In this document: positions 22,161 to 46,100 of the stretch, piece by piece
Position numbering within the stretch: position 1 is the stretch's first letter
Layout: each line of letters begins with the position of its first letter
Assembly: GCF_000003815.2 (NCBI RefSeq)
Contig: NC_049992.1
Location: 2,141,789 to 2,205,788 of the forward strand
Length of the DNA stretch: 64,000 bases
Source: Branchiostoma floridae
Lineage: Eukaryota; Chordata; Leptocardii; Amphioxiformes; Branchiostomatidae
Reading direction: 5' to 3'
Position numbers and translations under genes: made by a program
The notes under the pieces: generated by a model
What the model saw: only the letters and a program-made list of their open reading frames with translations
Database searches by the model: none
Told to the model about the DNA's origin: nothing

Positions 22161-25100
22161 ATGGACGCACCACGCGGGGGCGGGACGATGATGTCACCGC
22201 CGCAGCGGTTCTTCTACATGCCGCGGTTCCAGTACAACCAGAACCAGACATACCACGGGTACTACCGCCGCTTCCAGCCGCGCATGCACCAGCCAGACAC
22301 CCGGGACGGGGTCACGTTCGACGGGAAGCGCATGCGGAAGTCGATCCAGAGGAAAACCATCGACTACAACCCCTCCGTGATCCAGCACCTAGAGGTGGGA
22401 AGTGCTTAGAGTTAGAGTACTAGTACTCAATGGCCCTCAGGTCCCAAAAACTATATCCTTACTGTACAGATAGCTGTCTGACTACACACTTAAGGTTGAG
22501 AAAAGTTACTTGTCTTACCATACACAGTAAAGGTATTAGAATTAGATACATATTACAAGAAGAGAGGTCCTGTTTGTGAGCTAAATAGAACTGCTGCTGT
22601 ATTGTAAAATTTGTACAAAAAATTAAAGCAAATTGTTTTTAGATGATCCCAAGATTGGGTATCTAGGTTACTGTACTGCTTGCCTGATAAAGTTTCAAGT
22701 TTTCAGGATGTCTAGGTCTTTGCATCTCGAACACTTTGATGCTCAAAGTATATTTAGTAAGATGATGTGGAAACAGCACTTGGAGGAAAATCGGAATACT
22801 ACTTCATAGGTCAATTCACGTGGTACCAAGTGTTTGTACCAAGGTGCAGACTTTCTGCTCAGATTCCAGAGCACCATCCTCCGTTGGCTCAATCTGGTTC
22901 ACATCCTAGCTATCAATAATTAACCGTAAACAACTGGAGTCGAGACGCGTTTGGCCAAGAAGAAAAACAGAATGAAAGCCAAAGTTTTGGGCGGAAGTGA
23001 GTAGGCAGGGGCGAGCATGCGGTGACCACGTGTGAGGAGACAAAGACCGGGGTTGGGCCCGGGTTGTCGTAAATTAATAAAAATGACACTAGTGATAGTT
23101 TTCCAACATTATCATTGTACCTGCCAGTACTGCAGCCAGTCCTGGGCCTCCCGGCTAGCCTCAAACCGATCCGGGTGCGTGATGTTAGGGCTCAATACAT
23201 GGTCATTTTGTTTTTCATGACAATAGAATGTGTTCCATCGTTTGGGTAAGGTGACCACATCAACACGAGGCTAGCCGTGGTTAGCAAGAGTACAGATTGA
23301 GCCAGCGGTTTATTACAGAGGATGGTGACCAGGATAGTTAGATGTGAGAACCAACGTCTTACAAGTGAGATTAGCGTGACAACAGCTGAACCAGAGCTAG
23401 AAATCCTTTTTTTGTCACATGCAAAATTGCATCTTGGCAGACAATTTTCACGCAACTTGAAACATCTACATGCAAAATTATATAGAATTATAAATATTTA
23501 TTTTCAGTAATAAACAGAAAAACTATCAAACCATATAGCATTACAACAAGTATACACATTTGGCCCTACTTAAGGTAACGTTAACCTTGATTCCAGAGTT
23601 TATATTTACGAGGAATTCAGTGTTCTTAAATACTCCAAGCTAACAAGGAAGGAATCAACTTGTTAGAAAGTAGTTTGAGGCAACAAGAAATAACTTCTGG
23701 TTATCCTGGAGATGATTGAATAAGTAAAATGCAACCCTTGTGATGCAGCACAAGTATGAAACTTCTACTGTAAACAGTACAGACAAGATAGAGTCTTGTA
23801 CAAATGGCAAAATTACTTTTTACATGCAGATCTTGAAAAACACGCAAGTTGCATGTTGCTTGTGGGTATTTTGAGCCCTGCTAATTAACCTGTAACGAAC
23901 CACCCCAGACACGGATATGGCAGCGGGACATGCGGGACGTCCGGCCTCCCCAGCCCGACGCGGCCTACAGCCTGCAGCTGGTCCCCCCCATGGCCATGAT
24001 GGAACAGCCCATGAACAGCGTCACCACCAAGTTCGTCCGCACGTCCACAAACAAGATCAGATGCCCCATCTTTGTGGTTAGGGTAAGTACATTTTTGTAC
24101 TGTTCACTGGTCTGTATCCCTCCTTAGGCTTAAGTCACATTTCCATACCGGGGCCCGGCCGGGCAGCTTTCGGGAGCAAAAAGAATGATATGAAATGCAT
24201 CAAAATACACAAAATGTCAAAATAAGATTCATGGGCATAATTTGTGTATATTTTATGTTGTAATTTTTCGTTTCTTAAAACAAATGTGACCTAAGCCTAC
24301 TCTGGAGAATCACACACACGTGTACTGAACAGTGGCATGAGATCTACTCTAACAGGTACCACCTCCTCCAGCTATACATGTGCAGTATGTACCCCCTGTT
24401 ACACATACCCGGTACATGTATGTATATCAGTGCCCCTCCCCTTGCAGCCAAGAGTCCCCCTGTTGCACCTCCATGAATAAGATAAGATGCCCCATCTTTG
24501 TGGTCAGGGAAAGTGCCCCACTAACAGTTGTGAGTCCTAATATGTTTACACTGATGGACCTCGATGAAGGTTAAGGAATGGGCACAAATGACCGAGGTCC
24601 AATAAAAAGCGAGAAGCCGACAGAGAACAGAGCTTGAGTGGGTGGGCGGGTGGGTGGGCGTGTTGTAAGAACCAAACGGAAACGTCAATTCACCCCCCCC
24701 AAATCTTACGGAGGGGGAGGGCCAAAATCGAAAACACTTGTTATATTACCATGTACAAATGTCGAGCAATAAAGTTCTATTATCAACTTCCCATGAAGGC
24801 TATACAGCTATACTTTAGAAGAAGCCCCCTCGTGTAAGTACAAGTACATGTATCTAGAATCACGTGCAACTACTGCTTCTCCCTTGGCCCCTTTCTACCA
24901 CCCCCTCTTTGCTCATACTCCACAACACAAATACTAGTACCCTGCGAGCAAAACTCTCCACTCCCTATCCTCTGCTGGGTTCGCTGCGAATGGGGAGATG
25001 AAGATATGTAATGACGTCACTGGTGTAGAAGTCTCGCGAGAAATGGATTCTCGCGAGACTTCATAATTGTGACGTCAGTGTGAATCCTAATATGTTTACA

Positions 25101-43100: not shown

Positions 43101-46100
43101 TAATGGTTTGGATCTCTTGTTGAGGGCAAGAAAATGAAGAAGTCTTACAGCCTGCTTTGTAAAGCCATTTGAAACTCAATGATATTGCCTGCACAGAGCC
43201 CTGATCACAAGTTCATGACCCTCTGAAACTCAAGACTGCTGGCATTGTCTAACAGTTTGGAGGTCTTTGTTAATGCATTGAAATGAAGAAGGCCAACAGC
43301 CTATTTTATAAAACCATTTTAAGCTCAATGTCGCTATGATAACATGTAACTCTTGTTAAGTTGGTATTATTTACTACCGTGTGATTGTCTTAATTCAAGT
43401 AAACTAGTAATTAAGTAACCAGAAGGTAATACATGGTGGTGTTGGTACATCAAGGTCTGAATGCCAATGGGAGAAACTCAAGAAAACCCACCTATTTAAC
43501 TGTACAGTAAAGCTGATACAGTTTGTTGCTGTTAGTTGAAGGTCAAGGATACCCAGATGGCACGGCGTGTATATGAACGTGAGCACGGCGTGTGTTCAGT
43601 TGTCTACGATTGTGTACATGTTAAGAAATACGTTTCCGAAACTGTACGAAAGTCACTGCACTTCTTGTTGTGTCAATAAAGCTTAGGCCACACCAATTTA
43701 ATTTCTTGGTTCACGGATTTTTTCATAAAAAATATGGAGCGACAGGGCAAAAAAAAATTAAAATAAAAGTGGTTGGGGTAAAGATAAGGGCTAATCCAAA
43801 ACATAAAGAATAAAAAGTTTTCAGCTTGATAAAAGTACAAAAACACTATTACTGTACAGTAACAACACCTGTTTGTTGAAAATTACAAAAGTAGTGTCAG
43901 TTTTCATGTTTGTCCCATTCTTCATGAATAAAAAATATAACTGCAATAATAGTACCCACATCTAAAAGAGCTTATAATATAAAGGCCAATTTGCTACACC
44001 AGAAAGTTGGTGAATGGTTTCATTAATGGTGAAAATTTGCTGAGTGGTAATTTTCATTTTATTTTTATTTTCCAAAAAATAGGAGCGAGAGAATCCGTGA
44101 ACCAATCATTAAATTAAATTGGTATGGCCTTATGTGTAAAGTATGGACTAACAAACTTATCATGTTCAAGGGAGAAGGACCAAGATGGCTACCAGACTCT
44201 TTACTTTGATGTTTTTAAGAAGAAGACAATGCTAGGAAGCATCACCTGAGTGACTGGTTTGTGTGTTGCAGGAAATTCTGGTCGCGGAACCGCCCTGGGG
44301 ACCAGATGAAGGACCGGTACAACCTGAACCTGCCGGTGGGGAGCGGCGGGGAGGACGGCATGGAGGGTACGTCTGCTTGTTTGTTTGTTTGTTTGTTTGT
44401 TTGTTTGAGGGACCAGTGAAGGACCGGTACAACCTGAACCTCCCGGTGGGGAGCGGCGGAGAGGACGGCATGGAGGGTACGTCTGCTCGTTTGTTTGTTT
44501 GTTTGTTTGTTTGTTTGTTTGAGGGACCAAAACACTGGACTTCTCACTTGGTGGTGGGGGGAAAAATATGCATGATGATATACAGGATGAATGCGATTTG
44601 CCTTCTCATGGAATCTTAATAACATAGGTTTTCTAGGATTTCCAAAAACAATTACCTAGTTGTTTTAGTAACTATTATTGGACGGTTTATAGGTTTTCAT
44701 AGATTCTGTTTTTACCCCTAAGGAACCTGTCATATTCCCATCTGTACGTGTTGGCATGTCTTTTGTACATTCAAGAGTTGGGTGAAAATAATAATTCAGT
44801 AACATAACATCAGGTTATGGTGTAAATGATCTTATAGGCATAATGATTCTGAATGATGTTTTGCCTCTATGGTCCATGAGTTTTATGGTTGCCAGTGTTT
44901 TTTTTTTTTTCAAAGTTCAAATGGAGACATAAAACTGAAGTTTTTAAAATTCATTTTCTTTGTGTCAGAGTCTGTTGTGCTCATTGATGTTTGTATGTTT
45001 GTTTGTTCTGTGCAGAGATGGAGACAGCTGAAGCTCCGTCCTCAGCAGCTATCCCAGGGATGGGCCTGGAACACGGGCTGCCCGAACACCTCAAGAAACC
45101 AGGTGCGGAACTGGTCATCTTTTGAGTGTGTGTCAAATGAGCAGTAAACACTTGGGTTGTGTTATGATGATGATAATAATATCTGGCCCAGTTGGTACCC
45201 AATATTTGGGTAATGAGGCCTTACTTGGTCGAGGTGCCTCCTCTAGCACAGGACCTCCGTTTTACGCCCCTTCTGAAAAACGATTTCGTGGAATTCTTGG
45301 TCCAGCTACAGCATTTGGTCGAACTTGGTTGGGGGACTCACATCCGAGAACTGTCCAGACTGCGCATTGCTTAACTACCGAGATCGAGGGCTTGGGTGTA
45401 TCTAACGCGCCACACGTCCGTAGTTATAGATCTATTGTTTTCAGTTCAGGTAAAAAATACTGGTATCCAATTACCAAATCTGAACTTAACTTGATTCGTG
45501 AAAAAAGGAAATAAGTTTGAGGAAAACCAAAAACAAAGTAGCATCACAGAGCTGACATCATCTCTAAGATCTAAGATTTAACAAGTTTCTCGTAACGTCT
45601 CGATCTGTCTTTGAGGAACCTACATGTATAATGTGCAGATAAGTTACTGGAAGCTTGGACAGCCAAAAGTCATCTGATTCTGTATGAAATAATGAAGTTC
45701 CAAAAATAGCTTCATCGGGTTGGTAGAATATAAATGTAGGATATAGGAGAATTCTTTTAATTCAAAGCGCCACCTACATCGGCTACATATAGTGGTGAGA
45801 AGCAGAACTTCAGTTAGAAGCTGTAAAAACGTATACTAAGCAATGTAAGTCCCTGCTGGTTGTGTAACAAGAATTCTCCTATATCCAGTGATGAAATTGT
45901 TTAATATGTTTTTTACATTTTTACAGAGGAGCCGAAAGACGAGGCAGTCGACGTCTCCATCCCTGGTCTGGACTTCAGTACTGAGGAGATGAAGATCCTG
46001 GAGATGAGAAGGGTAACTTTTATCCATTCTCTTTGCTTTTTTAAATTTGTAAACCTTTATTCAGTTTTTGATTAGTTGCACTGGTTCACCCAATTTGAAA

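Follow-up and report, generated by a model that had tools for sequence, protein, structure and literature searches.

What becomes of a gene when the ends of its exons, splice sites included, are repeated over and over in its own introns? This question is raised by the WDR33 gene of the amphioxus Branchiostoma floridae, contained in a window of 64 000 nucleotides (C14:2141789-2205788 of a 513.4-Mb genome assembly labeled G000, from which the other loci discussed here were sampled as well; positions are those of the window unless stated otherwise). The WDR33 structures are mirage minisatellites, a kind of repeat already described in amphioxus: the repeat unit crosses the exon-intron boundary, many although not all units keep the AG or GT of the splice site, and the host is a cephalochordate. 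We favor, with moderate confidence, a reading in which these minisatellites owe their arrangement to geometry, the working exon is recognized through exon definition, and copies and exon exchange sequence, subject to a filter, in at least some of the arrays.

Exons 1-13 of WDR33 span positions 22161..46748 of the plus strand, with canonical splice sites and a frame open over 534 amino acids; further exons lie downstream, beyond the mapped set. The mapped exons are located at 22161-22394, 23909-24082, 32289-32384 and 33104-33255 (exons 1-4), 33833-33930, 35025-35151, 37247-37398 and 38415-38493 (exons 5-8), and 39054-39164, 44272-44366, 45016-45102, 45927-46012 and 46638-46748 (exons 9-13). The spliced product matches the solved WDR33 structure 9oxe_B with an E-value of 3.9e-261, and exon 7 used as a query leads to a single locus in the genome, judging from the best candidates. 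Among the best 120 of the 2526 protein matches to the 534-amino-acid product, no Branchiostoma entry was recognized, for which the length window might be responsible.

Copies were sought by comparing each mapped exon, together with its 60-bp flanks, with both strands of the window using blastn, and Tandem Repeats Finder (TRF) was run independently. Partial exon ends are repeated at six of the 13 mapped exons and at eight of the 25 splice junctions, with E-values between 2e-57 and 5e-8 for the listed copies, and TRF unaided recovers four of the arrays (exon 6 acceptor, exon 6 donor, exon 7 acceptor and exon 10 donor). The arrays consist of 2 to 11 units of 75-162 bp. At seven of the eight edges, the copies follow in series within a few hundred base pairs; the remaining one, the donor edge of exon 2, has a single copy (24465..24514, 86% identical over 50 bp) that has lost its GT and lies ∼380 bp downstream, not head-to-tail. 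The acceptor edge of exon 4 has two copies (32791-32854 and 33001-33061), both with AG retained. Exon 6 is repeated at both ends. Its acceptor array (34737..35073, period 162) includes a partial copy at 34737 detected by TRF, a full copy at 34817-34911 and the real exon at 35025, and in its donor array (35125..35611, period 75), the real donor at 35151 is followed by six copies, at 35226, 35301, 35376, 35451, 35531 and 35605, each with the same 9-mer, ACT/GTGAGT, as the real site. A decayed seventh copy, located by eye at 35720..35750, reads TCT/GTGAGT at 35742. The acceptor array of exon 7 (35763..37246) contains ten copies, the outermost of which, c1, at 35766, lacks the AG, whereas c2-c10 each include ∼70 bp of exon 7; the copy sites are at 35910, 36049, 36206, 36340, 36486, 36651, 36786, 36937 and 37092. 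The donor copies of exon 7 are found at 37505-37559 and 37668-37781, with a weak third at ∼37830-37865, those of exon 9 at 39230-39328 (84.6%) and, in decayed form, at 39329-39378, and the only donor copy of exon 10 at 44409..44529 (period 110). All these features are on the plus strand. The AG or GT is retained in 23 of the 25 examined copies, a count that leaves aside the third exon 7 donor copy, the second exon 9 donor copy and the partial copy at 34737. The arrays, comprising exon pieces and intron bits repeated along with them, occupy 1975 of the 2095 bp of intron 6 (94%). The first-pass annotation had listed copies at these six exons, and its census agrees with the blastn and TRF results, with several of the counted units being partial, weak or decayed.

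The same annotation had asserted that acceptor copies always lie upstream, and donor copies always downstream, of the intact exon. This is the case at all eight WDR33 edges, at one edge of the neighboring gene SSU72 and at all 18 edges with copies in the control genes described below, and exon-edge copies on the wrong side were sought by blastn on both strands of the window without any being found. The three reverse-strand matches are accounted for by a GTTT/CA microsatellite in the flank of exon 10 (one of these extends over five bases of the exon) and, ahead of exon 12, by an 18-bp match within the intron. Selection for the survival of one contiguous exon, which had been put forward as a possible cause of this arrangement, is unnecessary. 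After a tandem duplication that crosses a junction, the exon body touches just one unit, and therefore, the extra units fall on the intron side. The rule is thus geometric, with only the outermost unit remaining joined to the exon body, and because copies on the wrong side would need a different event, it supports the origin of the copies by tandem duplication and carries no evidence of selection. In exon 10, the heptamer GGGACCA occurs at the start of the array (44298), between the units (44409) and at the end (44523-44529). This is probably the short direct repeat that seeded the duplication, the exon 10 array being the one examined in this respect. The ‘stub' previously reported next to the exon 10 copy is this 7-bp motif, which also starts both units.

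Whether the duplications are targeted to junctions is a separate matter, and no such claim is made here because the per-locus and per-base tests disagree. When duplication loci are counted by unit size, in a post hoc, hand-made list, 8 of 12 in WDR33 span a junction compared with 0.9 expected; with TRF arrays alone, 4 of 6 do so compared with 0.5; and in the control genes, 17 of 30 compared with 4.5 (P = 2e-8), with spanning judged by inspection and one L036 array lying outside the counted range. By contrast, duplicated bases cover 8 of the 25 WDR33 junctions versus 5.8 at shifted or random points (P = 0.21), and a second per-base test yields 7 of 26 versus 5.7 for WDR33 (P = 0.30) and, by an automatic rule, 13 of 270 versus 16.5 for the controls (P = 0.83). 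A shift test at the locus level gives 7 of 11 versus 2.9 for WDR33 (P = 0.005), 7 of 13 versus 4.1 for the cullins (P = 0.07), 2 of 11 versus 2.4 for CCT, and 9 of 24 versus 6.6 for both of these control sets together (P = 0.16). The control edges are derived from hidden Markov models, so that they are imprecise and some are not real junctions.

The frequency of exon-edge copies was assessed in loci of four Pfam families that were not chosen for repeats, namely, 9 CCT, 5 cullin, 6 MCM and 4 myosin loci, with 135 recognized exons. The family-match rows covered were 54 of 60 for CCT, 42 of 42 for cullins (41 counted), 23 of 30 for MCM (22 counted) and 18 of 142 for myosins; one cullin row and one MCM row were dropped because they were themselves copies. 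By inspection, junction-spanning copies are present at 18 of up to 270 exon edges, in 8 of the 24 loci: two edges in CCT, nine in cullins (six of these in one gene), two in MCM and five in myosins. A stricter automatic rule leaves 13 edges. The excess in WDR33 (8/25 versus 18/270, Fisher P = 5e-4) is to be read with the fact that WDR33 was picked because of its copies. Thus, the density that the first-pass annotation considered unusual is indeed above that of the sampled loci, but it is not singular: SSU72, cullin, MCM, CCT and myosin genes have similar arrays, and a CUL3-like gene (L020, G000:C12:3648200-3658100), a cullin that we take to be CUL3, has mirages at six of the 26 edges of its 13 recognized exons, one of them a five-copy acceptor array whose units are more decayed the farther they lie from the exon. 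In a myosin gene, the acceptor edge of the exon encoding the P-loop GESGAGKT is present in 22 units of 50 bp (L036:1332-2430). In SSU72, the donor edge of exon 3 (∼5272) is accompanied by three decayed copies near 5173, 5036 and 4940 (4880..5330, minus strand), placed by eye.

Most of the copies present the splicing machinery with credible sites. Scored with a matrix built from the gene's own 12-13 sites, the tested exon being left out, 18 of the 22 scored intact decoys reach or exceed the real site, among them eight of the nine intact exon 7 acceptors and the six exon 6 donors with identical 9-mers; the lower-scoring decoys are two exon 7 donors, the exon 6 acceptor and one exon 7 acceptor. 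Modeled read-through use of a decoy leads to a premature stop in all 23 decoys tested, and the donor and acceptor that lie closest to each other across intron 6, 167 nucleotides apart, are both decoys. The description of the WDR33 introns as arrays of decoy splice sites, made at first pass, is therefore borne out by the site scores and the 94% array cover of intron 6. Given that the frame is intact over 534 amino acids and the protein is conserved, the machinery presumably separates real sites from decoys by position and not by site strength, provided that WDR33 is correctly spliced. It follows from the geometry of the copies that the real exon is the innermost, shortest acceptor-donor (AG-GT) pair. 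Pairing of sites across exons (exon definition) would fit this geometry, whereas intron-wise pairing would not.

The differences between the copies and the exons are mostly silent. Over the exon-derived portions of 26 WDR33 copies (c1 of exon 7 and the partial copy at 34737 left out), 43 of the 66 distinct substitutions are silent compared with 17.9 expected (P = 1e-10), and 44 are at third codon positions. At 16 of the 18 control edges (the L027 acceptor array and the 22-unit L036 array were excluded, and three of the five copies at acceptor 1 of L020 were used), 45 of 71 changes are silent compared with 19.6 expected. Pooled, 88 of 137 changes (64%) are silent, against 37.5 expected if neutral; adding the 22-unit L036 array, with two silent changes and four others counted by hand, brings this to 90 of 143. 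CpG and transition bias were rejected as the source of the excess because, under four settings of these biases, the expected silent fraction stays at 0.20-0.37. Constraint on the real exon would leave ∼43% of the changes silent even with copies inert from birth, a value that the pooled fraction also exceeds (P = 4e-7). In exon 7, variants present in at least two units are all silent (9:0, silent to amino acid-changing), whereas private ones are not (1:3, P = 0.014; 5:5 if those of c2 are included, P = 0.022), and for the exon 7 and exon 6 donor arrays combined, the ratios are 11:0 for shared and 2:7 for private variants (P = 5e-4).

The real exon 7 unit itself looks like a recombinant. Compared with its neighbor c10, it is identical over 60 intron bases but differs in 7 of 73 exon bases, with six of the differences silent, and its exon part is closest to c8, with two differences. 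The simplest reading would be recombination at or near the splice junction. Silent divergence between the real exon 7 and c3-c10 is ∼0.1-0.3 per silent site (2 to 6 changes over ∼20 sites, by hand arithmetic), to be compared with a silent diversity between alleles of 0.0397 in B. floridae, as given in the available part of PMC12862219. Divergence above the allelic level would be expected if the units in the population outnumbered the chromosomes several-fold. Simple allelic snapshots are an unlikely source of the silent bias in exon 7 and in the L036 myosin, where silent divergence is several-fold greater than 0.04; the nearest L036 copy has eight silent and no amino acid changes over 81 bp. 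The units farthest from the exon (c1 and c2 of exon 7 and the copy at 35720) are the most decayed, and the exon 7 pattern fits concerted evolution among units from which the ends of the array are excluded, although this is a single array. Conversion tracts in B. floridae are mostly shorter than 200 bp, according to the part of PMC12500494 available.

Under the favored reading, segments that cross splice junctions would duplicate in tandem, probably through short repeats, and grow into the 2-11-unit arrays of WDR33, and a spliceosome working by exon definition could disregard decoys of equal strength. In some arrays at least, notably that of exon 7, the units, the one that includes the working exon among them, would swap sequence through short conversion tracts or unequal crossing-over. 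A unit with an amino acid change would be lost once it came to occupy the working position, so that old, shared variants would be silent, and units outside the exchange would decay or multiply as dead repeats. The case for the filter is strong for exon 7 and weaker over the arrays as a whole, and dead units can expand arrays too. A stronger version, in which exon edges with mirages are multi-copy families and units of its own decoy array time and again replace the end of the working exon, is possible but doubtful. If it holds, this replacement would lift silent diversity at the exon end far above that of the genome (for exon 7, 0.1-0.3 between the real exon and its units, compared with 0.04 between alleles), and exchanging units would be filtered for amino acid integrity as they pass through the working position. 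The decoy arrays would serve as a reservoir under indirect selection and also as a natural experiment in which exon definition alone, and not site strength, locates the exon. Coding evolution in amphioxus would be shaped genome-wide, with about 1/15 of the exon edges in the sampled genes having copies.

Several observations weigh against this reading. Over nine arrays compared pairwise, the contrast between shared (14:3) and private (41:35) variants is weaker (P = 0.027); this run supersedes an earlier one over five arrays, with 13:1 and 26:30 (P = 0.0014), in which the alignment was partly shifted by indels. In the 22-unit L036 array, the shared variants are two amino acid changes, in four and five units, and no silent ones, and amino acid changes prevail at the don2 edge of the CUL3-like gene (0:2, silent to not), the L024 donor (2:4) and the exon 7 donor (4:7). 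The age gradient is uneven at the exon 4 acceptor and among the inner exon 7 copies. Correct splicing of WDR33 is an assumption from the intact frame and conserved protein, the site scores depend on a matrix of 12-13 sites, and all results come from one assembly with a single haplotype.

A rival possibility is that the copies are dead from birth and exchange nothing with the exon, with the bias produced by constraint on the real exon alone and the dead units multiplying. Some silent excess is predicted in that case, and the private changes over the nine arrays, the decayed outer copies (c1 and 35720) and the amino acid changes common to dead units in L036 are all in accord with it, but a silent fraction of 64% is well above 43%, the identical intron sequence beside the seven exon differences in exon 7 is left unexplained, and so is the nearest L036 copy with its exclusively silent changes. 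We consider inert copies unlikely as the overall explanation, albeit far from negligible.

If the copies were used as poison or alternative exons to reduce WDR33 output and were retained by selection, this would account for intact, high-scoring splice sites, for coding-like variation and for the premature stop caused by every decoy tested. However, the private changes in exon 7 look unconstrained, the copies lack part of the exon, and the CCT, cullin, MCM and myosin genes with like arrays have no shared function, all of which makes this explanation highly improbable. The assembly itself could be at fault if divergent haplotypes were joined in tandem, which would create repeats of two copies whose differences are allelic and mostly silent. 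Amphioxus heterozygosity is indeed 3.2-4.2% in the accessible part of PMC12862219, and an aberrantly assembled mirage is reported in that of PMC3087553. Nevertheless, the arrays reach 11 and 22 units with an identical inner joint, the silent divergence of exon 7 from c3-c10 exceeds that between alleles, and other mirages are backed by resequencing (PMC3902484) or by reverse transcription PCR and traces (PMC3087553), as far as the available parts of these reports go, so an artifact appears very unlikely.

The surroundings of the arrays contain several other features. Divergent to WDR33 lies SSU72, an RNA polymerase II carboxy-terminal domain phosphatase (3978-13500, minus strand), of which exons 2-5 were recognized and the protein shares 93% identity with one from Branchiostoma; the products of both genes are factors tied to mRNA 3′ end formation. 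Intron 2 of WDR33 contains, away from the mapped exons, a GC-rich compound minisatellite (28465-30223; periods of ∼77, 157 and 315 bp) with long plus-strand open frames, as well as an 87-bp stretch with short inverted repeats that is 100% identical at 25001-25087 and 31336-31422 and is perhaps a mobile element. An open frame resembling a C-type lectin domain, noted by eye, lies antisense in intron 9 (39873-40370, minus strand), and additional antisense frames are present at 42674-43017. Farther downstream, minisatellites at 48766-48984 and 50747-50937 are located within long open frames resembling the Gly/Pro/Arg-rich C-terminal part of WDR33, followed by an inverted repeat at 54898-56102 with arms of ∼500 bp that are 98-100% identical, and by frames at 56600-60040 that by eye resemble an armadillo-repeat plus TIR gene, where no close direct repeats are listed.

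Because real and decoy sites in these natural pre-mRNAs can have identical sequences and differ by position alone, exon versus intron definition can be tested on them directly. The silent bias between the noncoding copies and the exon hints that repeats can pass variation to the gene next to which they lie, and that the gene in turn keeps them clean. On the practical side, mirage copies can mislead gene prediction and population statistics near amphioxus exon edges. In the literature searched, which most subscription papers fall outside, no report of a silent-site pattern in mirages or of the WDR33 case was found.

The mirages of Adh3 (Canestro et al. 2002, as described by citing papers) resemble those of WDR33 in the duplication of splice signals, and regular splicing of Adh3 is reported to be unaffected. 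They differ in that the Adh3 units are 10-72 bp long, compared with 75-162 bp at eight edges of one gene in WDR33, and somatic instability is reported for Adh3. The globin genes BflGb6 and BflGb9, in the available part of PMC3087553, are similar to WDR33 in having both acceptor and donor edges repeated, with a unit of ∼155 bp, and comprise 3 and 6 units in two haplotypes, with concerted evolution from which the boundary units are excluded. That report proposes intron gain, and its globin section includes no silent versus amino acid analysis; the WDR33 exon 7 array has ten acceptor copies. Repeats over splice sites are likewise described for lancelet PGBD5 and, by citation in the same report, for troponin C, with 60 and 108 bp over the 5′ and 3′ sites, with splicing stated to be normal; two repeats are named for PGBD5, compared with eight edges in WDR33 (available part of PMC3902484). 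The first-pass suggestion that WDR33 is a much larger case holds against the six units that are the largest copy number stated in the available parts of these two reports. To these known systems, the present analysis adds the WDR33 case, a first estimate of how frequent mirages are in genes not selected for them, an explanation of the direction rule and, still as a proposal, exchange between copies and working exon with a filter.

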